A DNA stretch of 64,000 nt from Solibacillus sp. FSL H8-0523 (GTDB taxonomy: Bacteria > Bacillota > Bacilli > Bacillales_A > Planococcaceae). Location: the NCBI RefSeq assembly GCF_038051985.1, contig NZ_CP150291.1:2604001-2668000 (forward strand). The letters run 5' to 3'. Below the pieces are notes generated by a model that saw only the letters and a list, made by a program, of their open reading frames with translations, ran no database searches and was not told the origin of the DNA. The translations under genes and the position numbers were made by a program. Numbering within the stretch: the stretch's first letter is position 1; the number at the start of each line of letters is the position of its first letter. This document shows positions 1 through 22,096 of the stretch, piece by piece.

Positions 1-19
1 AATACGTTAATTCTGTCAT
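1..19 (-). CDS. 5' end of a further catabolic-cluster gene (partial)
   Basis: An ATG on the minus strand at position 19 is preceded by a GGGGAAATT Shine-Dalgarno-like stretch and lies 21 bases after the stop of the SDR gene in the same direction. The six visible codons read MTELTY before the window ends. Product unknown. It shows only that the minus-strand operon probably continues to the left. Confidence 0.5.
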
Positions 20-40
20 TTTAATTTCCCCATTTCATTA

Positions 41-775
41 TTATTTTGCTAAACCTACTGGTGCTCCAAAACCGAATGCTTCTACTGAAGTAGCCGTTAT
101 TGCGCGGCTCTTCGGTAATACTAAATCGACAATAACATTGGCAATATCGATAGCATCTAACCAGCCGTCTTTATTTAAATTTGCTCCAAGTTCATTTGTC
201 ATTTGTGTATCAACCGGTCCCGGACATACAGCATTAACTCGTATACCGTATGGCTTTAACTCTTCTCCTAATGCTTTGGAGAATCCAATTACCGCATGTT
301 TGGAAGATATGTAGGCGCTACGGTTTGGACCACCTTTAGTCCCCCATATTGAAGAAATATTGATGATTGCCCCTGTACGTCTTTCAATCATCGATGGAAC
401 GGTTTCATAGCAGAAGTAATAAGGTCCATGAACGTTAATATCATGTATTTTAATCCATTCTTCCGGTGCTGTTTCTGTAAACGGCTTTAATGCCATCGCC
501 CCTGCATTATTGATCAATATATCTACAGGTCCAAGCTCTGCTGTGACAACCGCTACAGCTTCCTTGACTTGTGCATAATCCGAAACATCACATTTAATAC
601 CGATTGAGGCTACATGATATGTTTCTTGAATCAGTCGCTGTACTTCCGCACATTCCTGTTCGTTACGTGCACAAACAGCCACTTTCGCACCTTTTGAAGC
701 TAATAATAAGGCCGATTCTCTGCCGATGCCTCGACCTCCGCCTGTGACAAGCGCTACTTTACCTTGTAATTCCAT
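41..775 (-). CDS. SDR family NAD(P)-dependent oxidoreductase
   Basis: A classical short-chain dehydrogenase of 244 residues, the usual family length. The Rossmann glycine motif TGGGRGIG is at residues 11-18, NNAG at 89-92, and the catalytic Ser-Tyr-Lys set falls at about S142, Y155 and K159 (YISSK). It would interconvert an alcohol and a ketone on a pathway intermediate; the substrate is not evident. The ATG start has an AGGGGGC ribosome site and lies 9 bases downstream of the FAD dehydrogenase stop, so the two are almost certainly co-transcribed. Its place at the end of the ring-cleavage cluster suggests it acts on a side chain or a ring ketol. The family call is sure, the role inferred. Confidence 0.85.
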   Translation of the reverse strand: MELQGKVALVTGGGRGIGRESALLLASKGAKVAVCARNEQECAEVQRLIQETYHVASIGIKCDVSDYAQVKEAVAVVTAELGPVDILINNAGAMALKPFTETAPEEWIKIHDINVHGPYYFCYETVPSMIERRTGAIINISSIWGTKGGPNRSAYISSKHAVIGFSKALGEELKPYGIRVNAVCPGPVDTQMTNELGANLNKDGWLDAIDIANVIVDLVLPKSRAITATSVEAFGFGAPVGLAK

Positions 776-784
776 AAGAGCCCC

Positions 785-2203
785 CTATTGATAAGACTTT
801 TCCGTTTCTGCGATGTAACGCACAGCATCATAGCCTGCACGGCGACCGAATACTAAGCAGCGCAGAACCGATGTACCACCCGGATATTTGCCGTAATATA
901 CGCCCGAAGTTTCACCAACAGCATATAGTCCTGGAATCGCTACTTGATCACCTGTTACGACCCGGCCATTTAAATCTGTAGCTAAACCGCCATTTGTAAA
1001 TACATTGCAGCAAATAATCGGATACGCTATGAAAGGCCCTTTGTTAATCGGAATGGACCAGTTCGATTTATTGAGTGCTAAGCCTGTTGTTGCAAGTCCA
1101 TCAACACGGCTATAAATAAATTCACCTGTCGGACAGGCTGCATTAAATTCATTTACCGTATGTTTTAAGTTTTCTACGTTTACACCTATTTGGGAAGCAA
1201 TATCCTCTATCGTTTCTCCTACGATAGCCGGGATGTCTGTTTGCAGCGCCTCTTCGTAATTCGGAATATCATACATTTTTTGATCGGTAATCATGTAGGC
1301 TATATGGTCTTCACATTCGTAAAAAATTTTACGTGCTACTTCCTCATACTGCTCATCGATTGTTGTAACCCCTTCATCTGTAAAGCGTTTACCTTGCTTA
1401 TTCACTAGAATCGCATATGGGAACAACATTACGCCCGCTTCTTCACGTTTACTTCGCGGATCTACTGTTTCTGCGTGGAAAGCATCAAATTGCCCTTTAC
1501 CGGCAGCACCGATATTCATTGCCATACGGATTGCCTCACCTTTGTTAAACAAGCCGCCTTCAGATACCGGCGGAATTTTATATGCATCACGGCCAATATA
1601 TTGCGCCATCATTTCCTTATTTCCTTGGAAGCCACCTGCACCTAAAATAACCGCTTTTGTTTTCAGCAAGATCGATGCCCCATCAACCGTGCGCACTTTA
1701 ATGCCGTTTACTGCCCCTTCATCACCCAGCGTTAAGTCCCATGCCGTTGTTTCGTAGATGATTTCCACACCTAAAGCACGCGCACGTAAAGTTAGCGCAT
1801 CAATAATGGCACGCCCTCCGCCAACTGGTAATAATCGCGGCTTTGATGCTGTTAAAAACATCGTTGGCAGAAAGTCGAAATCAACGCCTTTAGACTCTAC
1901 CCAACGTAATGTCTCTCCCGCTTCGTCACGTAATGTTTCCGCATATGCACGGTCCATAAATGAGTCGGAAAATGAGACCATATCCTCGACGATGCCGTCA
2001 GCTGGCTTGTCGATACTTTCCATACGCATATAGGCAGCTGTCCAGCGTGTATTTCCCCCGCGTTGTTCAAAAGGGGCACGCTCCAGAATCGCGATAGTTA
2101 AATTTTCGTTTTGTTCCTTTGCCCGTTCAGCTGCGGCTAATGCAGAAGCCGTTCCCGCTGCACCGCAACCTACAATGACTAGATCATAATCCACTGCACT
2201 CAT
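785..2203 (-). CDS. FAD-dependent dehydrogenase, TcuA/fumarate reductase/KstD-like
   Basis: A 472-residue flavoprotein of the succinate dehydrogenase/fumarate reductase/3-ketosteroid dehydrogenase superfamily. The N-terminal FAD-binding motif is IVGCGAAG (about residues 10-17). A GGNTRWT stretch near 49-55 resembles tricarballylate dehydrogenase (TcuA-like) proteins. The C-terminal FAD motif GLYAVGE, followed by a YPGGTS segment, is intact. Enzymes of this fold insert a C=C bond next to a carbonyl or carboxyl. In this context it could desaturate or aromatise a cyclohexenone-type ring or oxidise a di- or tricarboxylic intermediate. It is one of two such paralogues in the cluster (the other at 12493-13977); they are clearly diverged. 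It sits 22 bases after the isocitrate-lyase-family gene. Substrate unknown. Confidence 0.8.
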   Translation of the reverse strand: MSAVDYDLVIVGCGAAGTASALAAAERAKEQNENLTIAILERAPFEQRGGNTRWTAAYMRMESIDKPADGIVEDMVSFSDSFMDRAYAETLRDEAGETLRWVESKGVDFDFLPTMFLTASKPRLLPVGGGRAIIDALTLRARALGVEIIYETTAWDLTLGDEGAVNGIKVRTVDGASILLKTKAVILGAGGFQGNKEMMAQYIGRDAYKIPPVSEGGLFNKGEAIRMAMNIGAAGKGQFDAFHAETVDPRSKREEAGVMLFPYAILVNKQGKRFTDEGVTTIDEQYEEVARKIFYECEDHIAYMITDQKMYDIPNYEEALQTDIPAIVGETIEDIASQIGVNVENLKHTVNEFNAACPTGEFIYSRVDGLATTGLALNKSNWSIPINKGPFIAYPIICCNVFTNGGLATDLNGRVVTGDQVAIPGLYAVGETSGVYYGKYPGGTSVLRCLVFGRRAGYDAVRYIAETEKSYQ

Positions 2204-2225: not shown

Positions 2226-3107
2226 TTAAGAATATTGTTTTTCCAGTTTTTGAATATCTTTTAACTTAAACAACTCCTGGCGCTCTTCCCATGTACAGAT
2301 TGCCCCATGAATATTTCCCTGGCTTTCATCACGCTTTAAAATTTGCAATGCATCTGACGCACCTTTGATGGCACCGCGTAACGCCGAGTTTGCACACAGC
2401 ATAATTTGGAAGCCTAAATCCCGCGCTTCCTGACGTGATACAAGCGGTGTTTTTCCGCCTTCTACAAGGTTAATGATATGCGGAATATTCGGTACTTCTC
2501 TTGTAATGCGTTCCATCTGCTCAAACGTAGTCGGCGCTTCTACAAAAATTGCATGGGCACCTGCTTCCTTATAAGCATTTGCACGTTCAATCGCCTTATC
2601 AAAGCCAAGGACTGCTAACGCGTCTGTACGTGCGATTATTGCCAATTGATCATCAACACGCGCATCTAAAGCCGCTTTAATTTTGCCGACCATTTCATCC
2701 TGTGAAATCACTTCTTTACCGCTGAAATGCCCACATTTTTTCGGCATCACCTGGTCTTCAATTTGCAATGCAGATGCACCGGATTTTTCCAATATTTTCA
2801 CTGTTCTCTGCATGTTGATTGCATTACCAAAGCCTGTGTCTGCATCTACAACGATTGGAATGGATGTCACTTCACTCATCCACGATACAACTTGGGCGAT
2901 TTCAGATAAGGTCGTCAGCCCGACATCCGCCCATCCGAGCTGAGCATTTGAAATCCCGGCACCTGTTGCATAAATTGCTTTAAATCCTGTCTCTTCAATA
3001 ATCCGGGCCGTCATTGCATCGAATGCACCCGGTAATATAAATGTGTCTTTACCTGCTAATAATTGTTGAAACATCTCTGTTTTTTTCAAGTTCAACCAGC
3101 CTCTCAA
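2226..3107 (-). CDS. isocitrate lyase/PEP mutase superfamily protein
   Basis: A 293-residue TIM-barrel enzyme of the isocitrate lyase/phosphoenolpyruvate mutase superfamily. The KKCGH catalytic motif is at residues 123-127 (C125 the likely acid/base cysteine of the lyase branch), and the Mg-binding VDADTGFG segment is at 87-94. Lyase-branch relatives cleave 2-methylisocitrate or 2,3-dimethylmalate, or decarboxylate oxaloacetate; which applies here cannot be told. The start used is TTG at 3107, which overlaps the TGA stop of the FAD-synthetase-like gene. A TTG four codons further in, after GAGAGGCTGG, is an alternative start. Placed with a TcuA-like dehydrogenase, it hints at a branched C4-C7 di- or tricarboxylate as a late intermediate. 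Confidence 0.8.
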   Translation of the reverse strand: MRGWLNLKKTEMFQQLLAGKDTFILPGAFDAMTARIIEETGFKAIYATGAGISNAQLGWADVGLTTLSEIAQVVSWMSEVTSIPIVVDADTGFGNAINMQRTVKILEKSGASALQIEDQVMPKKCGHFSGKEVISQDEMVGKIKAALDARVDDQLAIIARTDALAVLGFDKAIERANAYKEAGAHAIFVEAPTTFEQMERITREVPNIPHIINLVEGGKTPLVSRQEARDLGFQIMLCANSALRGAIKGASDALQILKRDESQGNIHGAICTWEERQELFKLKDIQKLEKQYS

Positions 3108-3889
3108 CTAATTTCCTGATATTTTTGCGTAGCACGTTGATGGAAATATATCGAACAATCTTCAATATTTAAGTCATGATGGAAAGTAATGTACCTCTCA
3201 TTTTTCACATAAATCTTTTGTGAAATTGCGCGTTTGCCAACTAAAATTGTGACATAATATTCTCCGCGTTCAGGAAGGGTATAGTAAACGTGTAAACCAT
3301 GTTTCATAGAGTACTGTATGCTATACGGCTTTCCTAATAAGGCTGTTACCTCCTCGACATACCCCTGTTTCAACTTTTTACGAATGCATGTCGAGCTCAC
3401 CTTTTCACCTGATATGGCAAAACGTTTTACAACATCGACTTTAATCTTGCCTTCGCTATCAGATTCGATTGTGTCGATTGTGCCGGCTCCTTTAGTACCG
3501 TACGTATAATCAAAGCCCGCTACAGCATACTGTACTTGAAGCCCGACTAAATATTGCTGTACAAATTGCCTTGGCTGTAGAGCAGCAAACGATTTCGTAA
3601 AATCCACAATATAAAATAAATCGACCCCTAGTGACCGAAAGCTCTCACCCTTTTTTTCCATCGGCATTAAATAGTCTACTTCTTCATTAGAAAAGACCGT
3701 TTTCGGATGGGGGAAAAAGCTCATTACAGCAAGTTTTAAGCCTTTTTTCTGTGCCTTTTTTCTAGCTGCTAAAATAACTTGCTGATGCCCTTTATGAACA
3801 CCATCAAAAAATCCTAATGCCATCACTGCGGGTTCACTATTTTGTTGTACAATCGATAAATTTTTTTCATTTAAGATAATTGTTTTCAT
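3104..3889 (-). CDS. FAD synthetase-like protein (RibF N-terminal domain only)
   Basis: The N-terminal half matches the FAD synthetase (FMN adenylyltransferase) domain of bifunctional RibF: ALGFFDGVHKGHQQ at residues 24-37 carries the nucleotidyltransferase HxGH-type motif, followed by a conserved FFPHP segment. At 261 residues it lacks a recognisable riboflavin kinase domain; the last 70 residues do not resemble one. It would convert FMN plus ATP to FAD and so supply cofactor to the cluster's flavoproteins, which are unusually many (two monooxygenases, a reductase, two FAD dehydrogenases). The gene is embedded in the operon between a dioxygenase and the isocitrate-lyase-family gene, whose start it overlaps. 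The domain call is firm; the dedicated cofactor role is inference. Confidence 0.78.
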   Translation of the reverse strand: MKTIILNEKNLSIVQQNSEPAVMALGFFDGVHKGHQQVILAARKKAQKKGLKLAVMSFFPHPKTVFSNEEVDYLMPMEKKGESFRSLGVDLFYIVDFTKSFAALQPRQFVQQYLVGLQVQYAVAGFDYTYGTKGAGTIDTIESDSEGKIKVDVVKRFAISGEKVSSTCIRKKLKQGYVEEVTALLGKPYSIQYSMKHGLHVYYTLPERGEYYVTILVGKRAISQKIYVKNERYITFHHDLNIEDCSIYFHQRATQKYQEIS

Positions 3890-3948: not shown

Positions 3949-4899
3949 TTACTTCGCTTCAATTGTAATATTGTTCAATTCTTTATCCTGCACACTGTCG
4001 CCCCAATAAGTATTACTCAGGGCACGTTCTTCCAATGTCCACTCCACCGGTTCCCAATCCGGTTCGAAAATCAAGTAACCGCCTGAGAACAGTTCCACAC
4101 GGCAGCCGCTTCCAGGATCCATTACATATAAGTAAATAGCTTGAGATACACCATGTTTGCCTGGTCCGATAAATGGCAGATTGTTTTCTTTTAAAATATC
4201 AGCGGCGCGTAAAATATCCTGTGTATCATCTAACCAGTACGAGATGTGATGAAGACGCGCAGGTGTTGGAAGCGTTTCCTTTTTTATCATTGCGACATCA
4301 TGCACAAGAGGTGTCACACTCATCCAGCCTGCTAAAATACCATCATCGCCACGTAAGTATTCGCGCATATTGAAGCCTAGTACTTCTGTTAAAAAATCAT
4401 AAGAAGCGGCTACATCCGTCGTTGTATGGATATTTACATGGTCAAATCTGCGAGGTGAAATGCCCTTTTTCCAAGATTTATATACTTGATTTTTCAGTAC
4501 AGAAGCTACGTCTGCTGCAGCTTTCGGCTTTTCTACGTCATAATAAAGCTCGAATGTATGCCCACTTGGTATTTGGAAGCGAATTGAATCTCCAATACCT
4601 GGAGTCGTACCTTTTGGATAATCCTTAACATCTACATTGTGCTGTTCTAAAAGCTCCTTAAAGCCTTGAACACTCTCAGCTGTTTTTGTACGCCAGCCAA
4701 TGTGCTTTACATGAGCGCTTTCTCCCGCTTCGATGCTCAATGTATGATGCTGAAAATCACTGTAAGCACGTAAATAGTGAACACCATCAATTTCCGTTGT
4801 TTCTTCTAAACCAATAATATCTTTAAAGAAAACTAATGATTTTTCCAAATCTGTTGACACTAAAGCAACATGGCCTAATTTAGCGATTTCTGGTGTCAC
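3949..4899 (-). CDS. extradiol ring-cleavage dioxygenase, copy 3 (VOC family)
   Basis: A type I extradiol dioxygenase of 316 residues with two VOC half-domains (about 5-120 and 150-275). The catalytic C-terminal half keeps the Fe(II) facial triad: a His in DHVNIHT (H154), a His of LHHISYW (217/218) and a Glu in CRVELF (E269). The second-shell His in PLVHD (H200), GKHG (H249) and a following Tyr are also present, so the site looks complete. It cleaves a catechol next to the hydroxyls to a yellow meta-cleavage product. The GTG start at 4899 is supported by AGAGGGGGA seven bases upstream. It is closer in its C-terminal segment to the copy at 14974-15966 than to that at 9410-10363. A palindrome lies in its leader. 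Confidence 0.88.
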   Translation of the reverse strand: MTPEIAKLGHVALVSTDLEKSLVFFKDIIGLEETTEIDGVHYLRAYSDFQHHTLSIEAGESAHVKHIGWRTKTAESVQGFKELLEQHNVDVKDYPKGTTPGIGDSIRFQIPSGHTFELYYDVEKPKAAADVASVLKNQVYKSWKKGISPRRFDHVNIHTTTDVAASYDFLTEVLGFNMREYLRGDDGILAGWMSVTPLVHDVAMIKKETLPTPARLHHISYWLDDTQDILRAADILKENNLPFIGPGKHGVSQAIYLYVMDPGSGCRVELFSGGYLIFEPDWEPVEWTLEERALSNTYWGDSVQDKELNNITIEAK

Positions 4900-5039: not shown

Positions 5040-6062
5040 TCAAAAACTACTTTTACTATTTGCCAACGTAAATTCAAATGGCATTACACCTTTTGTTTTA
5101 ATCGGGAATTGCAATAAATAACCTGCTAAAGGCTCTTCTTTAATACGTGCTTCCGGCAATGCTTCATAAGCTGTTGTAACAAATAAGATGTCTAAATTTT
5201 TCCCGCCAATTGTACAGGAAGTGACTTGGGAAACCGGAATGATGAATTCTTCTTTAATTTGCTGCTGCTGCGGATTAATACAGACAACGCGCGTTTGTTC
5301 CTTACTTGTTTTTGCCATTAGACCGCCTTTAAACAAGGTCACATATAAATTACCTTCACTGTCGATCGACATACCGTCTGGGTAACCTTCATCCATTTTG
5401 AAAGTGTAAACAATCTTTTCAAAAAGCAGCTCCCCACTATCTGTTAATTCGTACTGAAATATCGCATACTTTGAAGAATCTATATGATAAAATTTATTGG
5501 TTTGACGATCCCACTCTAGCCCATTGGATATCGCTACTTTCGATAAATGTGTTTGAATCTCACCTTCTGCATTGACGGCTATCAGTTTCGCATTTTCAAA
5601 TGGATAGTTCGAGTATGCCGTTTGCGGAGTTTCTTTAAATTTTTTAAAAAAACCATCTGACGATCCAACCCATAAACGTCCATCCGGTCCACATTTCGAA
5701 TCATTTAAAAAATGTAGCTCAGACAGATCTGGTGGCAACACAAACGGTTTTTTCAGACCTAATTTAAAATTAATTAAATATAAGCCATCTTTATAAATGC
5801 CAATAAATTGACCATCCTTTGTCGGAATGATGGATTTAATCCAACCCATCGCATCATATACGTCTTCATTTTGTGTTTCTGGATTGAATGTAATAATTTT
5901 TTTATTTGCAATATCCAGCCAAATCACACCGTATGCTTGATGCCAGATTGGTCCATCTGCAAATTTCGCGCGGTAATTCCCACAAATATCCACCCATTCA
6001 CCTTCTCTGTCTATAAGTATTTGAAATTTTGAAGTCCTGCCGATACGTTCAGTATTTCTCAT
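5040..6062 (-). CDS. SMP-30/gluconolactonase (LRE) family protein
   Basis: A 340-residue beta-propeller protein of the SMP-30/gluconolactonase/LRE family. Family features include a GP-W near the N terminus (ADGPIWHQ), an SNGLEWD segment near residue 170, and a DGMSIDSEGNLYVT stretch near 230 that supplies metal ligands (Asn/Asp). Relatives hydrolyse lactones; here it might open a lactone formed during ring degradation. The ATG at 6062 has no clear Shine-Dalgarno sequence, so the true start is uncertain; a GTG 23 codons in, after AGAAGGTGA, is possible but would clip the fold. It is separated from the upstream aldolase gene by a terminator and probably begins a separate transcript. Confidence 0.75.
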   Translation of the reverse strand: MRNTERIGRTSKFQILIDREGEWVDICGNYRAKFADGPIWHQAYGVIWLDIANKKIITFNPETQNEDVYDAMGWIKSIIPTKDGQFIGIYKDGLYLINFKLGLKKPFVLPPDLSELHFLNDSKCGPDGRLWVGSSDGFFKKFKETPQTAYSNYPFENAKLIAVNAEGEIQTHLSKVAISNGLEWDRQTNKFYHIDSSKYAIFQYELTDSGELLFEKIVYTFKMDEGYPDGMSIDSEGNLYVTLFKGGLMAKTSKEQTRVVCINPQQQQIKEEFIIPVSQVTSCTIGGKNLDILFVTTAYEALPEARIKEEPLAGYLLQFPIKTKGVMPFEFTLANSKSSF

Positions 6063-6092: not shown

Positions 6093-6123
6093 AAAAAGCT
6101 ACCCCACTTTTTATTAAGGTAGC
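6093..6123 (-). terminator. terminator after the aldolase gene
   Basis: On the minus strand GCTACC and GGTAGC form a hairpin followed by TTTTT. It lies about 55 bases past the aldolase stop and upstream of the lactonase-like gene, dividing the cluster into at least two transcription units. Confidence 0.6.
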
Positions 6124-6176: not shown

Positions 6177-7184
6177 CTACATAGCTTTTATTTTTTTTAA
6201 ACTTTGTGCCACTTCATAAATTAAGTCCTCTTGCCCACCGACTGTTTTACGGCGACCTAGCTCAACTAAAATATCGCGCTCATCTACACCGAATTGCTTG
6301 GATGCTTTTTCAGTGTGAAGTAAAAAGCTTGAATACACCCCTGCATAACCCATAATTAAACTTGAACCTGAAATTTCCTGTGGGCGCGGTAAAATTGGTG
6401 CGACGATTTCGTTGGCTACATCGATAATATTGTACAAATCCACACCTGTCTGAATGCCCATCCGTTGTAATACTGCAACCAGCACTTCAGTCTGCGTATT
6501 TCCGCTGCCTGCCCCTAATGCACGCAGCGAACCGTCAATATAAGTAGCGCCCGCTTCGATTGCCGCTAATGAATTCGCCATCGCCAATGACATATTATTA
6601 TGGGCATGGAAGCCGATTTCACAGCCTATATTTTCTTTTAATGCTTGAATTCGTTCTGTTACTTGATTAGGTAAAAGAAACCCTGCCGAATCTGTAACAT
6701 AGACGATTTCTGCACCGTAGCTTTCAAACAATTTGGCCTGTTCGACAATGATGCTTGTTGGTGCCATATGTGCCATCATTAGAAATCCAGCTGTTTTTAG
6801 ACCTAATTCGCGACTATAGGAAATATGCTGTGCTGCAATATCTGCCTCTGTGACATGTGTCGCGATCCGTGCCATTTTCGCCCCTGCATTCACTGCATTT
6901 TTTAAATCATCCTTAATCCCAATACCAGGAATAAGTAATACAGCTACTTTTGAATCGGTACATTCATTGGCGGCAACTTCAATCAACTTCAGTTCGTCCA
7001 CTGCAGATAAACCATACTGCAAGCTGGATCCGCCTAAGCCATCACCATGTGCGACTTCAAAATATTCAACACCCGCTTCGTTTAATCCCCTGGCAATTTC
7101 ACGTACTTGTTGCTCGGAATATTGATGTTTCATTGAGTGACTGCCATCTCGTAACGATACATCTAAAATATGAATGTCTCTCAT
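6177..7184 (-). CDS. dmpG: 4-hydroxy-2-oxovalerate aldolase
   Basis: A 335-residue DmpG/MhpE/BphI-type class II pyruvate aldolase. The HMGL-like barrel begins with the active-site segment LRDGSH (R12, D13, H16), and the metal-binding FHAHNN motif is near residue 200. It splits 4-hydroxy-2-oxo acids to pyruvate and an aldehyde that is channelled to the partner dehydrogenase. The C-terminal region carries the dehydrogenase-docking domain typical of the family. The ATG start (AAGGAG upstream) overlaps the dehydrogenase stop by four bases, as expected for a channelled complex. It is the only aldolase in the cluster, so both ring-cleavage branches would converge on it. If chain length differs, the aldehyde could be propanal rather than acetaldehyde. 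Confidence 0.93.
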
Positions 7185-8068
7185 CGCACAACCGCTCCTT
7201 GCGCTATTAGATTTTTGGCTAATTCATTTGCCACACGTGCGGCTGCTGCAGTCATAATATCCAGGTTTCCAGAATAAGGCGGGAAGAAATCGCCAATCCC
7301 TTCCACTTCAAGAAGAACCGATACTTTATTGTCTTCAAAAATTGGTTCGCCGCATAAACGGTAACCTGGGACATATGTTTTTACTTCCTCAATCATCTCT
7401 TTTATAGAAGCGCGAATTTCGTCTTCTTTACCTGTTTCAGCTACGAGCGCATGGACTGTATCCCTCATCATTATTGGTGGCTCGGCTGGGTTTAAAATAA
7501 TGATGGCTTTACCTTTTTTTGCACCGCCCACTACTTCAATTGCGTTTGAAGTAGTACGTGTAAACTCATCAATATTCGCACGTGTACCTGGGCCCGCGCT
7601 TTTACTTGCGACCGTTGCCACAATTTCTGCGTAATCGACCGGTACTACACGGGAAATAGCCGCGACAATCGGAATCGTTGCCTGACCGCCACAAGTGACC
7701 ATGTTTACATTGTCTTTATCAAAATGTTCACTTAAATTTACAGGCGGCACAGTGAACGGGCCTATTGCTGCTGGTGTTAAATCGATCATTTTTTTACCGG
7801 CTGCTTTTACTACCTCGTAGTTTTCCCTGTGGGCATAAGCACTCGTCGCATCAAAAACGATATCCACTTGGTCTAACCGTAATTTAAAGCCTTCAATTCC
7901 ATTTTCAACTGTGATATAGCCGCGATCACGTGCGCGAGCCAAACCTTCCGATTGCGGATCAATACCGACCATAACCGCCATTTCCAGCGCATCACAACGC
8001 TCAATTTTATACATTAAATCGGTACCGATATTACCTGAACCGATGATGCCCACTTTTAATTTCTTCAA
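7181..8068 (-). CDS. dmpF: acetaldehyde dehydrogenase (acetylating)
   Basis: A 295-residue DmpF/MhpF/BphJ-type acylating aldehyde dehydrogenase. The NAD-binding motif GSGNIGTD is near residues 10-17, and the acyl-thioester cysteine lies in [10 protein letters not shown] (C126 with this start). It oxidises the aldolase product to acyl-CoA with NAD+. The chosen start is TTG at 8068, with AGGTGATC six bases upstream and a [10 protein letters not shown]-terminus matching the family. The in-frame GTG at 8077 has no ribosome site in front of it. It is translationally coupled to the aldolase (ATGA overlap). Acetyl- or propionyl-CoA would be released; the latter would fit the propionyl-CoA genes at 22-31 kb. 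Confidence 0.93.
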
Positions 8069-14107: not shown

Positions 14108-14962
14108 CTAAAATTTATTGCTGAAGAATTGCTGAATCAAATAATTGAATGAATCTTTCTTCTCAATTTGTGTCCAGTGGCCACATTGAGGGAACACATG
14201 CAGTTGGGCATTGTGTAGATGTTCAGCAAGATAATAGCTTGAGTCAATCGAGCACACTTTATCGTTTTGACCATGGACCAATAAAATAGGATGTTTAATT
14301 CGATTTAATGCCACGACCGGAATCGGCACAGCAACTGTTGAAAAAATAGAGTTGTTCGAGCGTTTTACTTCTTCACGCATGGCATTTGCATAACGTGCAT
14401 CTGTTAACCCGTCAATAATCGGTTGCATCGCCCCTTGGTCGTAAACGAACCAGCCCATAATTTGTTGAAGACGTTTTTTAGAAGGATTGTCGTAAAACGA
14501 TTTTGCACGAGCCAGCTCCAGGCTTAGCTTTGTATTAGGTGTTCCGCCCGGACCCATCAATACAACACGATCGAAGCGTTCAGGATATTCCAGCAGCAAT
14601 TCTTGTGCAATCGAACAACCCAATGAATTCCCTACTACATGTGCTTTTTCGATTTCATAGTGATCCAGCAGCTCAATTACTTGCTCAATCCAGCAATCCA
14701 TCCACATTTGACGATTTTTCAGTGGCACATCCGGGTGATCACTATCCGCAAAGCCATACAGGTCAGGTGCTAAACAGTGAAAATCATTTCCACAGTCATT
14801 TAATGCATAACTCCAATTGGCTATTGACGTTACGCCAGGACCTGAACCATGTAAAAATAAAATCGTCTCGTTTGTTCTTGAACCTGCTTCATTGACAAAC
14901 GATGTATATTTTCCAGTTTTCACATGACCTGATTTAATTGTCACTTCATTTGCTACTGTCAT
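14108..14962 (-). CDS. meta-cleavage product hydrolase, copy 1 (alpha/beta fold)
   Basis: A 284-residue alpha/beta hydrolase of the MhpC/BphD/HsaD type. HGSGPG is at residues 38-43, nucleophile S113 in GNSLGC, D234 in HGQNDK and H262 in CGHWTQ; the triad is complete. It hydrolyses the C-C bond of the dioxygenase product. Its substrate pocket region differs clearly from copy 2 (11621-12478), as expected for a different side chain. The ATG start is preceded by AGGAGG and lies 11 bases after the dioxygenase copy 1 stop. Confidence 0.88.
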   Translation of the reverse strand: MTVANEVTIKSGHVKTGKYTSFVNEAGSRTNETILFLHGSGPGVTSIANWSYALNDCGNDFHCLAPDLYGFADSDHPDVPLKNRQMWMDCWIEQVIELLDHYEIEKAHVVGNSLGCSIAQELLLEYPERFDRVVLMGPGGTPNTKLSLELARAKSFYDNPSKKRLQQIMGWFVYDQGAMQPIIDGLTDARYANAMREEVKRSNNSIFSTVAVPIPVVALNRIKHPILLVHGQNDKVCSIDSSYYLAEHLHNAQLHVFPQCGHWTQIEKKDSFNYLIQQFFSNKF

Positions 14963-14973: not shown

Positions 14974-15966
14974 CTATACTTCTAATGCTGGAACTGCTTT
15001 CGTCTTTTTGACACCTGTCGCATCAATCGTTGGCACAATTAGCGGATTTCCCGTAATGCTGTCTCCCCAATATGTGTTCCCAAATGCACGTTCTTCCGGA
15101 CGCCATACAACTGTTTCCCAGTCCGGTTCGAAAATTAAATAACCGCCTGTAAATAATTCCACTCTGCAACCGCTTCCAGGATCCATCACATATAAGTAAA
15201 TTGCTTGTGACACACTATGTTTGCCCGGTCCGATAAACTGCAGGCCATGCTCCTTACAAATATCTGCAGCACGCAGTAAATCACCTGAATTGTCCTGCCA
15301 ATAGGAAATGTGATGGAATCGCGCTGTTGTTTCCAGTTTTTCATGTGACACTAAAGCGACATCATGTACTAATGGCGTAACACTCATCCAACCGGCTAAA
15401 ATATTGCCTTCTTCTGTTTCGATACACTCATTGATACGGAATCCAAGTTCTTCCGTAAAGAATTTATATGTGATGCTTGAATCCGCATCCGTGTGAAGAT
15501 TGACATGATCCAGACGTCTGGGAGAAGCGCCCTTATTGTATGATTTATACGTTTGATTTTTCAGTACAGAGCGACGGCTTTCTTCCACTACCGGTCTTTC
15601 AATTTCATAGTAGAGCTCTAAACGATGTCCGGATGGGGCAGTAAAACGAATCGCTTCACCTATACCCGGTGTTGTCCATGCCTCGACATGTTCAATTTCT
15701 AAGCCTTTGCTACCTAATTGATCTGCAAATAATGCTACATCCTCTGCACGCTTTGTACGGAATCCGATATGGGTTACTCGCCCTGTTTCACCCGGCGCAA
15801 TAGATAGCGTGTGGTGCTGGAAATCTCCCCATGCCCGCAAGTAATACGTGTCACCGATTTGTTCTGTCAGCTCAAGGCCAATGACATCTTGGAAGAAATG
15901 TAAAGATGCTTCCATGTTCGAAGACTGTAAAGCTACATAGCCTAACTTTGCAATTGCTGGTCTCAT
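14974..15966 (-). CDS. extradiol ring-cleavage dioxygenase, copy 1 (VOC family)
   Basis: A type I extradiol dioxygenase of 330 residues, with two VOC half-domains and a C-terminal tail about 13 residues longer than its paralogues. The iron triad is H154 (DHVNLHT), a His of FHHISYW (218/219) and E270 (CRVELF); H201 (PLVHD), H250 (GKHS) and Y257 are also present. It should be active. It cleaves the catechol supplied by monooxygenase copy 1 and hands the product to hydrolase copy 1, 11 bases downstream. The ATG start follows AAGGGGGTT. The 100-base gap before it may hold an internal promoter. Confidence 0.88.
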   Translation of the reverse strand: MRPAIAKLGYVALQSSNMEASLHFFQDVIGLELTEQIGDTYYLRAWGDFQHHTLSIAPGETGRVTHIGFRTKRAEDVALFADQLGSKGLEIEHVEAWTTPGIGEAIRFTAPSGHRLELYYEIERPVVEESRRSVLKNQTYKSYNKGASPRRLDHVNLHTDADSSITYKFFTEELGFRINECIETEEGNILAGWMSVTPLVHDVALVSHEKLETTARFHHISYWQDNSGDLLRAADICKEHGLQFIGPGKHSVSQAIYLYVMDPGSGCRVELFTGGYLIFEPDWETVVWRPEERAFGNTYWGDSITGNPLIVPTIDATGVKKTKAVPALEV

Positions 15967-16066: not shown

Positions 16067-17269
16067 TTAATAACGTATTTGATTTGGATCTAAACCAGAT
16101 AATTGTCTGCCATAGTTTTCTCGCGTAATAATTGGAGACAATGAGCGGTGGGAGTTTAATGTTAAGAAATCACGGATTAAACGCTGCATTGGACTTGCAT
16201 CATAAACAAAACCAGAGCCGCTTGCCTTTAAAATTACTTGCACGGCTTCACTTAACAATTCATTTGCATAACCAATATCGGCCAAAGCCTTTAATCGTAA
16301 ATCTTTCGGCATGATTTCACCTTTTGCCGCCCACTCATCAATTGATTTTGCCAAATTCATAAAGTAAAGTTCAGCCGTCTCTACTTTTAATTCAGCTGTT
16401 GCCAATAAATAATGCGTACTCCCTGCATCTTTGATCATTTTTACGCCCATATGCTGAGCCGTACGGTATGGCAGTGATTGTTTGAAATTATCGAGCATTT
16501 CTTTTACAACACCTAGACCCGGTAAGCCTAAAGATAATATTAAGCATGGAAATAACGCAGAATTATATAATGGAATATCACGTAAATGCGGCGACTGGAA
16601 ATCTCCGTCCAGGATTTTTACAAATGACGTTACACGGTGTTCCGGCACGAAGACATTTTTCATTTTTACTGCATTACTGCCTGTACCTCGAAGACCTAAT
16701 GTGTGCCAGTCATCTTCAATTTCCATTACGTCAAATGGTACAGTCATTAACAGCTGCTCTAGAATGTTGTCGTTCTCATCTTTTGTGTACATCCCGAAAT
16801 AACCCCAAGTCGCATGCAGTGAACCTGAACAGAACATCCAGTGCCCTTCCTCTACAAGGTAACCGCCTTCTACTTTACGGACCGTACAAGATCTCGGTTC
16901 GTATACACCCGCAAATAATACATTTTGAGGGTTATTGGAGAAAATCTCCAAGTGGGCCTTTTCGTTGAATGATTCCGCCACCATAATATCGCGAATTGCA
17001 CAAAGTGATGTAATCCATCCAGTAGAAGCACATGCTTTCGATAGTTCAATAATGACTTGGCTGTACGTTTGAACATTGGCTTGTAAACCACCGTAACGTT
17101 CCGGACGTAAAATATACATTAAGCCAGAATCCTTCAATTCCTGCATCGTTGTTTCTGGAATTCTTCTAATCTCCTCTGTTTCCTTTACACGCTTACGTAC
17201 ATTCACTGCAATATTCTGCATTTTATTCATTATTTCAATTTGTCTTTCTGTAAGTGCTAATGTCATCAT
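16067..17269 (-). CDS. acyl-CoA dehydrogenase-fold flavin-dependent monooxygenase, copy 1 (HsaA-like)
   Basis: A 400-residue group D flavin monooxygenase with the acyl-CoA dehydrogenase fold. A conserved LRGTGSNAVKMKNVFVP segment lies near 193-209, and the C-terminal helical domain is of the HsaA/DszC type. It probably ortho-hydroxylates a phenolic intermediate using reduced flavin from the reductase at 8864-9337. It is the first gene of the long minus-strand operon, transcribed away from the regulator gene across a 361-base divergent region. Start ATG at 17269 with AAGGAGTTGA upstream; a second ATG follows immediately. The same fold includes nitroalkane oxidases and true dehydrogenases, but the dioxygenase and hydrolase next door favour ring hydroxylation. 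Confidence 0.83.
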   Translation of the reverse strand: MMTLALTERQIEIMNKMQNIAVNVRKRVKETEEIRRIPETTMQELKDSGLMYILRPERYGGLQANVQTYSQVIIELSKACASTGWITSLCAIRDIMVAESFNEKAHLEIFSNNPQNVLFAGVYEPRSCTVRKVEGGYLVEEGHWMFCSGSLHATWGYFGMYTKDENDNILEQLLMTVPFDVMEIEDDWHTLGLRGTGSNAVKMKNVFVPEHRVTSFVKILDGDFQSPHLRDIPLYNSALFPCLILSLGLPGLGVVKEMLDNFKQSLPYRTAQHMGVKMIKDAGSTHYLLATAELKVETAELYFMNLAKSIDEWAAKGEIMPKDLRLKALADIGYANELLSEAVQVILKASGSGFVYDASPMQRLIRDFLTLNSHRSLSPIITRENYGRQLSGLDPNQIRY

Positions 17270-17630
17270 TTCAACTCCTTTTATTTGTTGACTATAATAT
17301 TACGTTTTTAAATATCTAATAATATGGTGAATATCTATGGAATTTTGAAACAAATATAAACAAAATTTAACGAATTATGATCCTATTGCAAACGCTGTCC
17401 CTTATAAAAAAAGATTGTAAATAATAATGCACTTCTTTATATGCCGCCTATATGGAAGGTCCAATTCTATTGAAAATATAAAGCCCTACACGTAGAAAAT
17501 GCTTTAAGCAAAATTTAGCGATTTACCGTTTTTCCACAAATTTTTAGAGAAAAAACTTCTCATTTTCATGTAAAGTGTGGTATCTTTCAATTAAATGTAT
17601 ATAAAATTCAGAATATTCAGGGGGTTGAAG
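17270..17630. promoter_or_regulatory. divergent control region between catabolic operon and regulator
   Basis: This 361-base AT-rich stretch has no gene. It must hold the promoters of the minus-strand operon (a TATTATA -10-like sequence near 17290-17300) and of the plus-strand regulator. TGCAAACGCTGTCC at 17387-17400 matches the cre consensus at 12 of 14 positions. No clear -24/-12 promoter was found, which fits the PucR-type rather than sigma-54-type regulator. An operator for the regulator is not recognisable by eye. Confidence 0.5.
17387..17400. promoter_or_regulatory. cre-like CcpA site in divergent promoter region
   Basis: TGCAAACGCTGTCC agrees with TGWAANCGNTNWCA except at positions 3 and 14. 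It lies about 120 bases upstream of the first operon gene and 230 bases upstream of the regulator. Carbon catabolite repression of an aromatic-degradation cluster would be usual in Bacillales; binding itself is inferred. Confidence 0.35.
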
Positions 17631-19457
17631 ATGCCAGGCTCATCTTATGTGGATAAAGAGTTGTATACTACTACTAATACTTTTGGAATCTTACGGAAAG
17701 AATTGATTGAAAGCTTAGGCATAGAATACGCAAAATTCTTTTTACAGCGTTATGGATGGAATATCGGAGTTACTCACGCCAAAGAAGTCGATTATTTACC
17801 GCTCACGTTAACCGAAAAATTGAATAGTGCGGTGGGGTATCACCTAGCTTCCGGCCAAATTACGGATCTCCTATCAGAAAGAGTCCTGCAGTTAAATCCC
17901 GATGATACGGTGAAATATATGTACGCCAAAGGCATTTGGGTGAACTCTTATGAAGTTGGCGAACATATCAAACATTTCGGTGAAAGCGATTCTTGTATTT
18001 GCCATACACTGGCCGGATATTCAAGTGGATTTACCTCTTATTTAACAAAAAAAGAAGTGTATATAGTAGAAATGACTTGTCGTGCTAAAGGGGATGAACA
18101 TTGCGCCTTTGAAATGCGCATGCTGGAGCATTGGGATTCTGAGACTCAATCTGACCTAAAGAAAATTAGTCAGTCAAGGATGATTGATGATTTGAATAAA
18201 ACATATAAGGAATTATACGAGGAGAAAAAACATACAGAAAGAGTTTCATCTTTCCATAACAATTTAACACTAAGCATATCGCAAGGGATGAACATCGATC
18301 AAATTTTAGAAACCATATATTCAACCCTAAACGTCGCGGCCATTGTGCAGGATTTAAGCTTTAACACTCACCATTCGATTGGCATGACACAGGAACAGCT
18401 TGAATTTATTGCAGAAGACTTTATTCGACAAATGCCACAAACGAAATCCGGAAAAATATTAATACAGCCTATAGACCCTATGCATCCCAGTCAAGTTGAT
18501 TGCCCCACCCATACCCGACTTATTAGCCCTATTACCGTACAGAAGCAGATTATTGGATATATCTCATTCATTTATTTTTCGAAGGACACTAATTTTAAAG
18601 AAGAAATGCACTATGTACAACGTTCGGCTGTTTCCATTTCACTCTGTTATTTAAATGAAAAATCAAGCCTGGAAGCGACTGAAAATATTAAAGCATTCTT
18701 TTTTGAACAGTTGCTGCAACAGCAATACACATCAAAGAAAAGTATGATCAGCCGCAGTTACCTTCTCCAAATTGATTTAAATGATGACTTTTATATAGGA
18801 AGTCTTGGCGTCACAAAAAAAGGAATACCCGTCAATGAAACTTCCACTATTCAAAAAATCATTCAGTCTGTCATTATTTATTTGGAAATGCATCAAACGT
18901 CCATCTTTATTACCGAATTCCAAGATGAAATTGTTTTCTTGTTCCCTAAAAAAGATGATACGTACGATATTTTTCAGAATATATTAAAGCACTTGCAGCG
19001 GAAATTTAAAAGTTTGGATTTCCGTATCGGATTAAGCCGGGTAATCAATGATATTGATGATATTGTAGAAGCACATCGCCAGGCGATTACTTCATTAAAT
19101 ATTAATAAGCGTGATACAATTGTATACTTCGAGAATACAAATATACTCGGCTCGCTTATTAATCATCAAAACAGCGATGTGATTGTGAAAATAGCACTTC
19201 GTGAGCTAGAACCGATTTTATCGTTAAAACCAAATAAAAGAGATGAATTTTTAAAAACTTTATACACATTTTTAAATCATAACGGAAATCTTAACCTTAC
19301 AATGGTGGATTTGAATTTATCCATGAGCGGTCTTGTTTACCGCATTCAAAAAATTGAAGAATTGCTTGAGCGAAACCTACGCAGTTCTAAGAATCTCTTT
19401 GAATTAATACTTTTAATTGAGTCTTTAATTGTTTTAGGAAAAATTGAAATAGAATAA
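17631..19457 (+). CDS. XylR_N/V4R sensor regulator with PucR-type C-terminal HTH
   Basis: A 608-residue transcription regulator. The N-terminal about 80 residues resemble the XylR_N activator domain. Residues about 95-165 form a V4R domain with the typical spaced Cys/Gly pattern (SDSCICHTLAGYSSG, then CRAKGDEHCAFEMR). The middle resembles the GGDEF-like region of CdaR/PucR proteins, and the last about 65 residues are a PucR HTH_30 domain (LNLTMVDLNLSMSGLVYRIQ). XylR_N/V4R modules bind aromatic effectors in XylR/DmpR/PoxR, but there they are joined to a sigma-54 AAA+ domain, absent here. The start chosen is ATG 17631 after CAGGGGG; an upstream in-frame ATG lacks a site. It is transcribed divergently from the operon it likely controls. 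Confidence 0.82.
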   Translation: MPGSSYVDKELYTTTNTFGILRKELIESLGIEYAKFFLQRYGWNIGVTHAKEVDYLPLTLTEKLNSAVGYHLASGQITDLLSERVLQLNPDDTVKYMYAKGIWVNSYEVGEHIKHFGESDSCICHTLAGYSSGFTSYLTKKEVYIVEMTCRAKGDEHCAFEMRMLEHWDSETQSDLKKISQSRMIDDLNKTYKELYEEKKHTERVSSFHNNLTLSISQGMNIDQILETIYSTLNVAAIVQDLSFNTHHSIGMTQEQLEFIAEDFIRQMPQTKSGKILIQPIDPMHPSQVDCPTHTRLISPITVQKQIIGYISFIYFSKDTNFKEEMHYVQRSAVSISLCYLNEKSSLEATENIKAFFFEQLLQQQYTSKKSMISRSYLLQIDLNDDFYIGSLGVTKKGIPVNETSTIQKIIQSVIIYLEMHQTSIFITEFQDEIVFLFPKKDDTYDIFQNILKHLQRKFKSLDFRIGLSRVINDIDDIVEAHRQAITSLNINKRDTIVYFENTNILGSLINHQNSDVIVKIALRELEPILSLKPNKRDEFLKTLYTFLNHNGNLNLTMVDLNLSMSGLVYRIQKIEELLERNLRSSKNLFELILLIESLIVLGKIEIE

Positions 19458-19732: not shown

Positions 19733-20941
19733 ATGTTTCCAACATCCAGAAGTGGTTTTTTAAAGTTTTTAATTGTACTGATTGCCTTCCAAGATGTAGC
19801 TGCTGGTGTAGCGGGATCGATTATGGCGGACCTGATTGTCGCCTTTCCAGAATTTAGCCCTACTACTGTTATGTTAATTGCGACAATGCCTGGTTTGCTC
19901 CAAATTTTCCCTTCCCTTTTCTATGGGAAGCTAGCGAATAAATTCTCAAAACGCGGATTATTAATGACCGGGTTAATCTTATTCTTAATTGGTGGTATCA
20001 TGCCATTCTTCCTAAGCAATCTATTCGCAATTATTGTTTTCCGCGGTATTTTAGGTCTTGGTGTTGGTATTACTTTGCCTTTATCCATTGATATTATCAC
20101 TGGTTTCTTTGAAGGCCGTGAACGCGATTTCTTAATCGGATTCGGTACTTCAACAATCGCATGTGTCGGGGCGATTTTCTTCCAAGTAGTTGGTGGTATG
20201 TTAGCAGATGCATATGGCTGGAACTATGGATTCTTAGTGTACTTATTCCCGATTTGGATTTTAGCTATCACATTCCTGTTTTTACCAGAGCCGAAGAAAC
20301 AGGAAGTACCCAATGCTTCAATCAAAGATGTTTTATTTAAAGCACCAAAAACAGTATATGGATTCACAGTTGGACAAATTATTTTCTCCGCTTTCGTATT
20401 TGGCTATGTAACAAATATCTCAATCATTATTCAAACTGAAGGTTTAGGGAATGCGACGGAAGCCGGTTTGGCCATTTCACTATTTACAACAGGTACATTA
20501 TTGACAGGTTTCTTCTTTGGTAAACTGCGTTCCATCTTGCCGAACCTTATCGTACCACTAGGTGTACTTTTAACAGCTACTGGTATTTTATGGTGTTCAA
20601 CAGTAGGTAGTTTAACAATGATTTTTGTAGCCAGTGTACTTGGCGGTATGGGCTTAGGAATCGTGCTTCCTGGCGTATTAGCACGAGTATCAGAGTTATC
20701 AAATATAGCAAAAGGTATTTCTTTTGTAGGGATCGCTGCTGCCGGTCAAGGTTTAGGTGGCATTGTGAGCCCTTATATGTTTGCAGCCATTTTGAGCGTT
20801 TTTGGCTTAGAAGGCGGACGTTCTACATTATTTATGGCTTCTATTGGTCTATTTATTTTGGCCATTGTTTGGGGGATTATAGCCGCTAGAAAATCACCTC
20901 TAACAATTAATGATAGTGAAGGTCAAACTGAAGTTGCCTAA
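19733..20941 (+). CDS. MFS transporter
   Basis: A 402-residue major facilitator with about 12 hydrophobic segments. The loop 2-3 motif is GKLANKFSKRG (about 62-72), and a FRGILGLGVGITLPLSID segment in helix 4 is typical of the DHA1-like group. Start ATG with AGGGGGTATT upstream. It lies between the regulator and an FAH-family gene on the plus strand, each unit with its own terminator. Uptake of the cluster substrate or export of an intermediate are both possible; direction and ligand cannot be told. Confidence 0.82.
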   Translation: MFPTSRSGFLKFLIVLIAFQDVAAGVAGSIMADLIVAFPEFSPTTVMLIATMPGLLQIFPSLFYGKLANKFSKRGLLMTGLILFLIGGIMPFFLSNLFAIIVFRGILGLGVGITLPLSIDIITGFFEGRERDFLIGFGTSTIACVGAIFFQVVGGMLADAYGWNYGFLVYLFPIWILAITFLFLPEPKKQEVPNASIKDVLFKAPKTVYGFTVGQIIFSAFVFGYVTNISIIIQTEGLGNATEAGLAISLFTTGTLLTGFFFGKLRSILPNLIVPLGVLLTATGILWCSTVGSLTMIFVASVLGGMGLGIVLPGVLARVSELSNIAKGISFVGIAAAGQGLGGIVSPYMFAAILSVFGLEGGRSTLFMASIGLFILAIVWGIIAARKSPLTINDSEGQTEVA

Positions 20942-20958
20942 ATTATAACAAACAATAA

Positions 20959-21002
20959 AAAGGCTGTTCACTTTGGGGTTCCCCCTTAGTTGAACAGCCT
21001 TT
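20959..21002 (+). terminator. terminator of the MFS gene
   Basis: AAAGGCTGTTCA (20959-20970) pairs perfectly with 20991-21002, followed by a T-rich stretch. It begins 18 bases after the MFS stop. The symmetrical flanks could also stop minus-strand transcripts. Confidence 0.75.
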
Positions 21003-21133
21003 CAATTTCTTTTCTTACATACTTCCATTAATTTTTATTGATTTTCCTCTCGTAAATTCATTAATAAACAACTAACTATTTACAACCGTTTCAAATAAAA
21101 TAACAGTAGACTTTACTATTTAGGAGGATATAA

Positions 21134-22096
21134 ATGGGAATTAAGTTAGTACGTTTTCAGCAAGGTGATTCGATTCAATGGGGTGTGTTAGATGATGCAC
21201 TTTATTTGGTAAATGGATTTTATCTTACATTACGCGATATTTTAACATCGGGGATGGAGGCCATTGCGAACGCAAAACAAACAGGTCATATTATTGATCA
21301 AGCCACTATTTCGATTCTTTCGCCTGTAACAAATGATGCAAACATTTATTGCCAGGGTACAAACTACAGCGCACACCGTGTTGAAGCCGGATTTTCAAAG
21401 CAAAAGCCACCATACAATCTATTATTCACAAAAGCATCCAGTACGTTAACTTCTGCAACTGCAGATATTGTATGCCCAGCACATGTTCGGTTATTGGACT
21501 ATGAAATTGAACTAGGCATTATTATGAAGCAAGATGTAACAGAAGCGAGCGAAGTCACAAACGGTAATTTAAAAGATTATATAGCAGGTTTGGTTATTAC
21601 TAATGACATTTCTGCACGTGATGTACAAATCGTAGAACAGCAATGGTTTAAGGGGAAAAGCTACCGTGGCTTCTGCCCAACTGGCCCATACATCTATTTA
21701 TTAGAAGAGGGAGAAATCGAATACTTAGAAAAATTAGAACTCCGCTTATCCGTAAATGGCGAAACACGTCAACATGTACAAACTAATCAGTTATTATTCA
21801 AGCCTACTGAAACATTGACTGAAATGTCCAGTATTTATGATTTAAAAATTGGTGATCTTATATTAACAGGAACCCCTGCTGGTGTGAGTCTTCGCCTAAA
21901 TGCTCAAATTTTAGGCATCATTTACAATAACTCTATCCCTTATGAAGAAAAAGTAGAAGCCTTCTACAATTCACAAAAAGATAATGGCTATTTACAGCCT
22001 GGTGATGTCATGCGTTTAGAAATTAAGAGCGAAGATGGCGTTATTGATTTAGGTGTACAAGAAAATAAAATTGTCCAAGCGGTCAGTGTAAAATAA
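21134..22096 (+). CDS. fumarylacetoacetate hydrolase family protein
   Basis: A 320-residue FAH-superfamily enzyme. Motifs are GTNYSAH (H81), the metal-binding LLDYEIELG (E124, E126) and a NDISARDVQ segment with a conserved Asp near 155. The FAH family includes acylpyruvate hydrolases and the HpcE-type isomerase/decarboxylases of homoprotocatechuate breakdown. A segment near 255-290 is longer than in compact relatives. It may hydrolyse or isomerise a ring-fission intermediate, as an alternative to the hydrolases across the divide. Start ATG with AGGAGG. No clear terminator follows before the YflT gene. Confidence 0.83.
   Translation: MGIKLVRFQQGDSIQWGVLDDALYLVNGFYLTLRDILTSGMEAIANAKQTGHIIDQATISILSPVTNDANIYCQGTNYSAHRVEAGFSKQKPPYNLLFTKASSTLTSATADIVCPAHVRLLDYEIELGIIMKQDVTEASEVTNGNLKDYIAGLVITNDISARDVQIVEQQWFKGKSYRGFCPTGPYIYLLEEGEIEYLEKLELRLSVNGETRQHVQTNQLLFKPTETLTEMSSIYDLKIGDLILTGTPAGVSLRLNAQILGIIYNNSIPYEEKVEAFYNSQKDNGYLQPGDVMRLEIKSEDGVIDLGVQENKIVQAVSVK

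Follow-up and report, generated by a model that had tools for sequence, protein, structure and literature searches.

Meta-cleavage in Gram-positive spore formers has so far been described, in the literature that we found, as single-set operons, such as the plasmid-borne phe operon for phenol in Geobacillus stearothermophilus and Parageobacillus (PMC2590616, PMC8696081). According to these reports, phe has a two-component HsaA-like hydroxylase, an extradiol dioxygenase, a hydratase, an aldolase, an acetaldehyde dehydrogenase and a regulator labelled pucR/pheR, together with a 4-oxalocrotonate branch and a ferredoxin. Here we describe a gene island of Solibacillus sp. FSL H8-0523, most of which lies in a 64,000-nucleotide stretch of the genome (NZ_CP150291.1, positions 2,604,001 to 2,668,000, hereafter called the window). 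The island shares the first group of genes with phe, but instead of one set it has two trios of hydroxylase, extradiol dioxygenase and C-C hydrolase (Mox1, ExdB and Hyl1; Mox2, ExdC and Hyl2), a third extradiol dioxygenase (ExdA), FAD dehydrogenases (FAD1 to FAD3), a short-chain dehydrogenase/reductase (SDR) and a lyase. Neither a second trio nor these FAD dehydrogenases, SDR and lyase appear in phe as described in these reports.

Other known systems resemble parts of the island. The hsaABCD module for steroid ring A follows the same logic of flavin hydroxylase, extradiol dioxygenase, C-C hydrolase and KstD-like FAD enzyme. An alkylphenol island in Rhodococcus is a single set (PMC6710988), and the ipp cluster for 2-isopropylphenol in Rhodococcus sp. 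D-6 has an HsaA-like oxygenase, a reductase and the flavin-biosynthesis gene RibBA, but differs by its para-hydroxylation, its hydroquinone dioxygenase and its one set (PMC12442392). Plasmid unnamed2 of Peribacillus asahii CK1 (NZ_CP085716.1) carries a V4R regulator, a hydroxylase, an extradiol dioxygenase, a hydrolase, a reductase, a hydratase, an acetaldehyde dehydrogenase, an aldolase, a FAD synthetase and an MFS gene. It has only one trio, however, its hydroxylase belongs to another clade (23-27% identity), no left-hand redox module is seen there, and its MFS gene does not match that of the island at 1e-10. Clusters of the same single-module build (V4R-type regulator, one trio, lower pathway, FAD synthetase) are also seen in G008 and G030 and at a second G012 locus, where G numbers denote genomes in our set. 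The bph-type cluster on pBt40 of Geobacillus genomosp. 3 has a related extradiol dioxygenase and the same lower pathway, but begins with a Rieske ring-hydroxylating dioxygenase and a cis-diol dehydrogenase that are absent from the island.

With the phe operon and the Rhodococcus island, meta-cleavage is a kind of pathway already known, and the two-trio version is a variant of its hydrolytic form. A preliminary description of the window, made from the sequence alone, had stated that its author knew of no described Bacillales pathway with this gene set. This stands for the 23-gene, two-trio arrangement, of which we found no description in the open-access literature, but single-set operons are described in Geobacillus and Parageobacillus (PMC2590616, PMC8696081) and a single-set relative is present on the Peribacillus asahii plasmid.

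Conservation and probable mobility of the island

The island is 24,751 bp (24.75 kb) long, contains 23 genes and lies in a genome that consists of a single contig of 4.14 Mb. It is best read as an intact catabolic unit that has been moved horizontally, and it is not a chance assembly. Searches with Mox2 and with FAD1 each covered 101 related genomes, the host included, and returned the same six, with an identity of at least 74% for Mox2, which has Mox1 nearby in each of them, and of at least 73% for FAD1. All 23 genes are present in these six: besides the host they comprise four of 15 congeners and P. psychrotolerans DSM 11706 (contig NZ_FOXU01000011.1). In the last, part of the set lies at the end of contig C8 and part at the end of C16, and the two ends presumably join. 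Among 398 Bacilli, five genomes matched Mox2 at 1e-45 and eight matched the racemase-family protein at 1e-15, in both cases closely only in the host and P. psychrotolerans; the other three Mox2 matches have 27-28% identity and the other racemase-family matches 29-30%. In comparison with the four congeners, every one of the 23 genes has a dN/dS within 0.011-0.084 (92 comparisons, dS 0.58-1.34; P. psychrotolerans was left out, because many of its genes were at or close to saturation), and the degree of constraint is similar in the two trios. Because all genes are under such strong purifying selection, no paralogue looks dead. The preliminary description had named non-functional paralogues as a possible refutation, and this is contradicted by these values. 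Conserved co-occurrence in related genomes, which it put forward as a check, is seen for the complete set in the six genomes.

The mobility is seen from the three surroundings in which the island is found (flanking genes as read from the sequence): in the host it adjoins pccB, in the four congeners its neighbours are hutU/hutI-like genes and the gene of an SLC13-like transporter, and in P. psychrotolerans it lies among other genes. At the host site it is absent from all nine congeners examined, of the 15. A MarR and an MFS gene beyond the racemase-family gene were considered as island genes and dropped as chromosomal backbone, because one of these nine congeners, G002, on which this call is based, keeps both beside YflT-like and PccB genes at the site without the island. 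In the 350 bp outside each end, shared end repeats of at least 10 bp are absent from three of five copies, and the other two have one 10-bp inverted match. The GC content (40.4%) equals that of the rest of the window (40.2%), so that it is the synteny that speaks for mobility. The block of the SMP-30-like gene and ExdA shifts position between the two genera, and TRAP transporter genes (DctP, DctM) lie within the island in G009 and G012 (L025/L026, L029/L030) and not in the other three copies of the genus, which suggests a carboxylate as substrate.

Enzymes of the island

Gene types were called from the list of open reading frames (ORFs) and from Pfam and NCBIfam scans, with the equivalog cut-offs of NCBIfam. 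Every gene type listed in the preliminary description was recovered where it had been placed: two oxygenases of the HsaA kind, three extradiol dioxygenases and two C-C hydrolases, and one gene each for the reductase, the hydratase, the aldolase and the acyl-CoA-forming dehydrogenase (acetaldehyde dehydrogenase). However, the island is larger than the 17 genes it counted and starts outside the window. Three more genes of the same direction are found at the left end (GlcG/HbpS-like, FAD3 and Asp/Glu-racemase-family, spaced by -4 to 21 bp), and the two TcuA/KstD-like FAD dehydrogenases seen in the window are therefore three in the island. The 20 minus-strand genes form a single colinear run with gaps of -4 to 140 bp, in the order Mox2, ExdC, Hyl2, FAD2, Hyl1, Mox1, ExdB, flavin reductase, hydratase, acetaldehyde dehydrogenase, aldolase, SMP-30-like, ExdA, FAD synthetase, PrpB-like, FAD1 and SDR within the window, and the two trios are placed mirror-wise about FAD2. 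The plus-strand genes encode a V4R/PucR regulator, an MFS transporter and a fumarylacetoacetate-hydrolase-family enzyme.

The two hydroxylases score 208 and 215 bits against a cut-off of 450 for HsaA, the flavin reductase 123 against 230 for HsaB, the three extradiols 42-57 against 450 for HsaC, and the two hydrolases 183-184 against 400 for HsaD and 139 and 146 against 462 for BphD. As neither these enzymes nor the hydratase reach the equivalog cut-offs, names such as HsaA stand for resemblance only. Membership of the steroid (hsa) pathway was rejected on these wide margins; a test for a KshA-type oxygenase gave two Rieske matches only in the genome, in frames of 182 and 464 amino acids, and no match to PF00848. 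The biphenyl (bph) pathway was rejected as well, since the BphD cut-off is missed and the ring-hydroxylating dioxygenase alpha subunit model PF00848, which detects 4 of 14 controls, has no match in the genome.

The residues H154, H217/H218 and E269 (numbering of the first extradiol) are invariant across six aligned extradiols and are, by the XylE/BphC numbering, presumably the metal ligands. The ligands called intact in the preliminary description are thus there, but they should be called metal rather than iron ligands, as a relative is annotated as Mn-dependent. The hydrolase triads, also called intact, can be read from the sequence as Ser (GNSLG), Asp (GxxD) and His (CGHW). With the pBt40 enzyme, which carries the annotation Mn-dependent 2,3-dihydroxybiphenyl 1,2-dioxygenase, the extradiols of the island share 47-52% identity, against 36-40% with phenol-type extradiols of Bacilli; extradiols of Thermus, G143 and G422 are as near as the pBt40 enzyme, and that of Peribacillus asahii is nearer. 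We take pBt40 to belong to strain JF8. BphC-JF8 prefers 2,3-dihydroxybiphenyl, then 3-methylcatechol, over catechol and 4-methylcatechol, as quoted in PMC8671467. Neither a 4-oxalocrotonate-branch gene nor a ferredoxin was found among the island genes, and the small ORFs of the divergent gaps include no likely candidate for them, the rest of the genome not being searched; of the processing routes, the island therefore encodes only the hydrolytic one. C-C hydrolases without this branch, together with extradiols nearer to the biphenyl type, point to ketonic ring-fission products, and most simply suggest that the catechols cleaved are 3-substituted.

Pairwise identities within the island are 53-61% for the extradiols, 40% for the hydrolases, 33% for the oxygenases and 30-35% for the FAD enzymes; the earlier wording, duplicated modules, is right only in part. 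Quick trees, in which the genus was represented by G000, G004 and G009 out of five copies, join ExdA to ExdC as its sister (97) and place ExdB beside the enzyme from the Peribacillus asahii plasmid (85-87). Without a root, a split with a support of 100 divides the island extradiols, pBt40 BphC and those of Thermus, G143 and G422 from three phenol-type enzymes (G008, G030, G422). ExdB has matches in 26 genomes, of which only G000, G019, G143 and G422 entered the extradiol trees, and the second of these trees was made without two G080 sequences. Mox1 and Mox2 cluster with sequences from proteobacteria, Streptomyces and other Bacilli (93), and the hydroxylases of Peribacillus, Thermus, G008, G030 and G422 are separate (100), in a tree without PheA1, three duplicates and one G080 sequence. 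The island thus has the two-component hydroxylase, extradiol and shared lower pathway of the phe type, but its hydroxylases are outside the clade of Bacillales single-module hydroxylases. Module duplication as the sole origin was rejected, since Mox1 and Mox2 as sisters have a support of 0, whereas Hyl1 and Hyl2 have 91. For a triplication of the extradiols that leaves the Peribacillus enzyme aside, the approximately unbiased test gives neither proof nor rejection (p 0.126).

The left part of the island is a redox and lyase module. When FAD1 to FAD3 are aligned with flavocytochrome c fumarate reductase, all three have Tyr at the place of R544, they have Phe, Phe and Ala at the place of H504, and the place of R402 is changed. 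As these carboxylate-binding residues are replaced, the three are unlikely to be fumarate-type enzymes, and their substrates may be ketones or alicyclic compounds. The racemase-family protein has both catalytic cysteines replaced in all eight aligned sequences, one by Thr (seven) or His (one) and the other by Glu (seven) or Gly (one). The PrpB-like lyase has its KKCGH motif and scores 285 bits against a cut-off of 354 for the 2-methylisocitrate lyase equivalog. A plasmid of Variovorax PBL-E5 has relatives of FAD1 (46%), the racemase-family protein (42%), FAD3 (42%) and, TcuA-like, FAD2 (47%) together with an SDR, but there an isochorismatase replaces GlcG (the gene order is FAD, SDR, isochorismatase, racemase, FAD), and no annotated ring-cleavage gene is found within 8-9 kb, in an incomplete annotation. 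The module can thus exist apart from ring opening. It adjoins TTT solute-binding proteins in Variovorax; SRS16 is known from matches only.

The host has a separate RibF-type gene besides the FAD synthetase of the island. Such stand-alone synthetases are found repeatedly where meta-cleavage clusters of Bacilli contain a flavin hydroxylase of the two-component type (L037, L038, L040, L149, L154), and since these include the clusters of G008, G030, the second locus of G012 and the Peribacillus asahii plasmid, the synthetase is a recurrent partner of these hydroxylases. In the ipp cluster, RibBA takes a comparable position (PMC12442392). Candidates for testing are the possibly Mn-type extradiols, the hydroxylases of a distinct clade and the cysteine-free protein with a racemase fold.

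One compound or several

The preliminary description had proposed either that two rings are opened one by one or that two related substrates converge on a shared lower pathway. Both fit what we found, and the evidence does not decide between them. We lean, with somewhat less than even confidence, towards the two trios acting sequentially on two rings, or on a ring and an aromatised ring, of one carboxylated compound, because among the 101 relatives Mox1-like and Mox2-like genes are either both present (six genomes) or both absent, and because of the colinear run of 20 genes. Judged by their families, Mox1 and Mox2, served by the one flavin reductase and the dedicated FAD synthetase, would convert phenolic rings to 3-substituted catechols, the extradiols related to the Geobacillus Mn-type BphC would cleave these adjacent to the substituent, and the two C-C hydrolases would yield R-COOH and 2-hydroxypenta-2,4-dienoate, which the single hydratase, aldolase and acetaldehyde dehydrogenase would take to pyruvate and acetyl-CoA. 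The V4R-type aromatic sensor probably turns the unit on. Less certain is that the trios work in sequence, where the second ring may be hydroaromatic and be aromatised by FAD2, and that the module of SDR, FAD1, FAD3, racemase-family and PrpB-like enzymes would process a remaining polycarboxylate or alicyclic part.

Several observations weigh against this scheme. ExdA is a third extradiol for two hydroxylases and superfluous in a strict two-step sequence, and a terminator-like hairpin between the aldolase and SMP-30 genes could divide the run into two operons (14 such sites were found over the scanned stretch, with 14.0 expected from shuffles). Five of the six carrier genomes belong to one genus, so the co-retention represents few independent events. 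In a tree with outgroups it is not resolved whether the extradiols of the island belong with that of pBt40. Dehydrogenation of a ring is also called into question by the model scores, as FAD2 has 536 bits with the TcuA model NF006130 (cut-off 369), although only 275 with TIGR02485 (cut-off 372.55), and FAD3 has 310.9 bits with the flavocytochrome c subfamily model TIGR01813 (cut-off 285.45).

A further reading, which we consider unlikely, is that a lignan or enterolignan-type dimeric phenylpropanoid, or a similar two-ring acid, is mineralised by this one Gram-positive gene run. The SMP-30-like protein, as a lactonase, would open a lactone, each trio would take off one of the phenolic rings so that a carboxyl group stays behind, and the SDR, FAD1 to FAD3, racemase-family and PrpB-like enzymes would dehydrogenate and split the leftover branched polycarboxylate. 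If true, a dimer of the lignan type would be mineralised aerobically, one ring after the other, and among the enzymes would be a cysteine-free one of the racemase fold with new chemistry.

Convergence of two related phenols, such as C6-C3 or alkyl phenols that differ in their substituents, with one trio for each, a shared lower pathway and the left module for the side chains, is nearly as likely as the sequential scheme, although it too falls short of even chances. The oxygenases and hydrolases of the two trios are so different that they must have been separated for long, the third extradiol suggests a range of catechols, and single sets exist on their own, as lone single-trio clusters in other Bacillales and as the alkylphenol island in Rhodococcus (PMC6710988). 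Convergence fits less well with the mirror-wise trios in one gene run, and with the finding that none of the 101 related genomes has a Mox1-like gene without a Mox2-like one or the reverse (a lone Mox1 would be expected at about 1e-74, and the next best match was at 4e-43). Another idea, to which we give only a small chance, is that an alicyclic acid is dehydrogenated to a phenol by SDR, FAD1, FAD3 and perhaps FAD2, like the 4-oxocyclohexanecarboxylate desaturases do, before the trios open the ring or rings. The Tyr shared by the three FAD enzymes at the R544 position speaks for it, as do weak matches to the KstD and 4-oxocyclohexanecarboxylate dehydrogenase (ChcC) models and the FAD1, racemase-family and FAD3 relatives with an SDR beside the TTT solute-binding proteins in Variovorax, but that module has no assigned function, the KstD and ChcC scores are all far under the cut-offs, and the models that FAD2 and FAD3 do pass are those of TcuA and flavocytochrome c. 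It is very improbable that the island is an ordinary operon for phenol or cresol, like phe in Geobacillus, whose paralogues do no more than raise the dosage or widen the range. The reaction types are the same and the lower pathway is similar (PMC2590616), but the 4-oxalocrotonate branch and the ferredoxin were not found in the island, its extradiols are only 36-40% identical to the phenol-type enzymes of Bacilli, and 11 more genes are conserved along with the trios.

Genes beside relatives in Ruegeria, Shinella, Paracoccus, Hydrogenophaga, Arthrobacter, Burkholderia, Cupriavidus, Paraburkholderia, Streptomyces, Sulfitobacter, Rhodococcus, Citricoccus and Variovorax gave no clue to the substrate. 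A conserved, mobile unit of 23 genes, with two full trios, a FAD synthetase and a redox and lyase module, is a compact start for finding a natural substrate of these bacteria.

Coordinates and other features of the stretch

Table 1. Features of the island, in window positions or, where marked, in L002, a stretch that extends to the left of the window (window position 1 = L002:16001)
Feature	Position	Strand	Basis and remarks
Asp/Glu-racemase-family gene	L002:13346-14191, left of window	same direction as minus-strand run	domain scan
FAD3, third FAD dehydrogenase	L002:14188-15567, left of window	same direction as minus-strand run	domain scan
GlcG/HbpS-like	L002:15573-16019 (3'-terminal end = window 1..19)	-	domain scan
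SDR	41..775	-	PF00106; in 6 island copies
FAD1, TcuA/KstD-like FAD dehydrogenase	785..2203	-	family models; Fcc3 carboxylate residues replaced (R544 position = Tyr)
PrpB/PEP-mutase-family C-C lyase, KKCGH motif	2226..3107	-	family models
Stand-alone FAD synthetase, RibF N-terminal domain only	3104..3889	-	Pfam/NCBIfam; no flavokinase domain found
ExdA, extradiol dioxygenase	3949..4899	-	family models, alignment, tree
SMP-30/gluconolactonase-like, possible lactonase	5040..6062	-	PF08450
Terminator-like hairpin and T run, between aldolase and SMP-30 genes	6098..6123	-	hairpin scan
4-Hydroxy-2-oxovalerate aldolase	6177..7184	-	TIGR03217, 501.5 bits, passes cut-off 286
Acetaldehyde dehydrogenase (acetylating)	7181..8077	-	TIGR03215, 456.6 bits, passes cut-off 282.25
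2-Keto-4-pentenoate hydratase-type enzyme	8079..8849	-	TIGR03220, 249.7 bits, under cut-off 408.8
Flavin reductase, sole one in island	8864..9337	-	PF01613
ExdB, extradiol dioxygenase	9410..10363	-	family models; 64% to Peribacillus asahii plasmid enzyme
Mox1, HsaA-like group D flavin monooxygenase	10392..11600	-	family models, tree
Hyl1, C-C bond hydrolase (alpha/beta fold)	11621..12478	-	family models, tree
FAD2, TcuA/KstD-like FAD dehydrogenase, between the trios	12493..13977	-	family models, alignment
Hyl2, C-C bond hydrolase	14108..14962	-	family models, tree
ExdC, extradiol dioxygenase	14974..15966	-	family models, alignment, tree
Mox2, HsaA-like group D flavin monooxygenase	16067..17269	-	family models, tree
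Divergent regulator, XylR_N and V4R aromatic-sensor domains, PucR-type HTH	17595..19457	+	domain scan
MFS transporter	19733..20941	+	domain scan
Fumarylacetoacetate-hydrolase-family enzyme, right end of island	21134..22096	+	family models, comparison of island-free congeners

The domain scan found no sigma-54 AAA+ domain in the regulator, the true start of which is probably an in-frame ATG about 36 bases into the ORF; its relatives, with 25-33% identity, occur in single-module clusters. That the host is a spore former, as the preliminary description had it, agrees with a gene that reads from its sequence as spo0A.

To the left of the island, near the insertion site, there is a candidate defence cluster (L002:1-11301), in which an ATPase is similar to PDC-M26A and a protein of 1013 amino acids to MkoA; scans of its other five proteins gave no strong match. 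Two RNA elements were found on the minus strand of the window. A Bacillaceae-1 RNA (34904-34970, 65 bits) lies in what reads from the sequence as a branched-chain keto acid dehydrogenase region, and a c-di-GMP-I riboswitch (61569-61654, 81.3 bits) lies just upstream of a gene for 238 amino acids (60770-61486) that has no Pfam match at 0.001.

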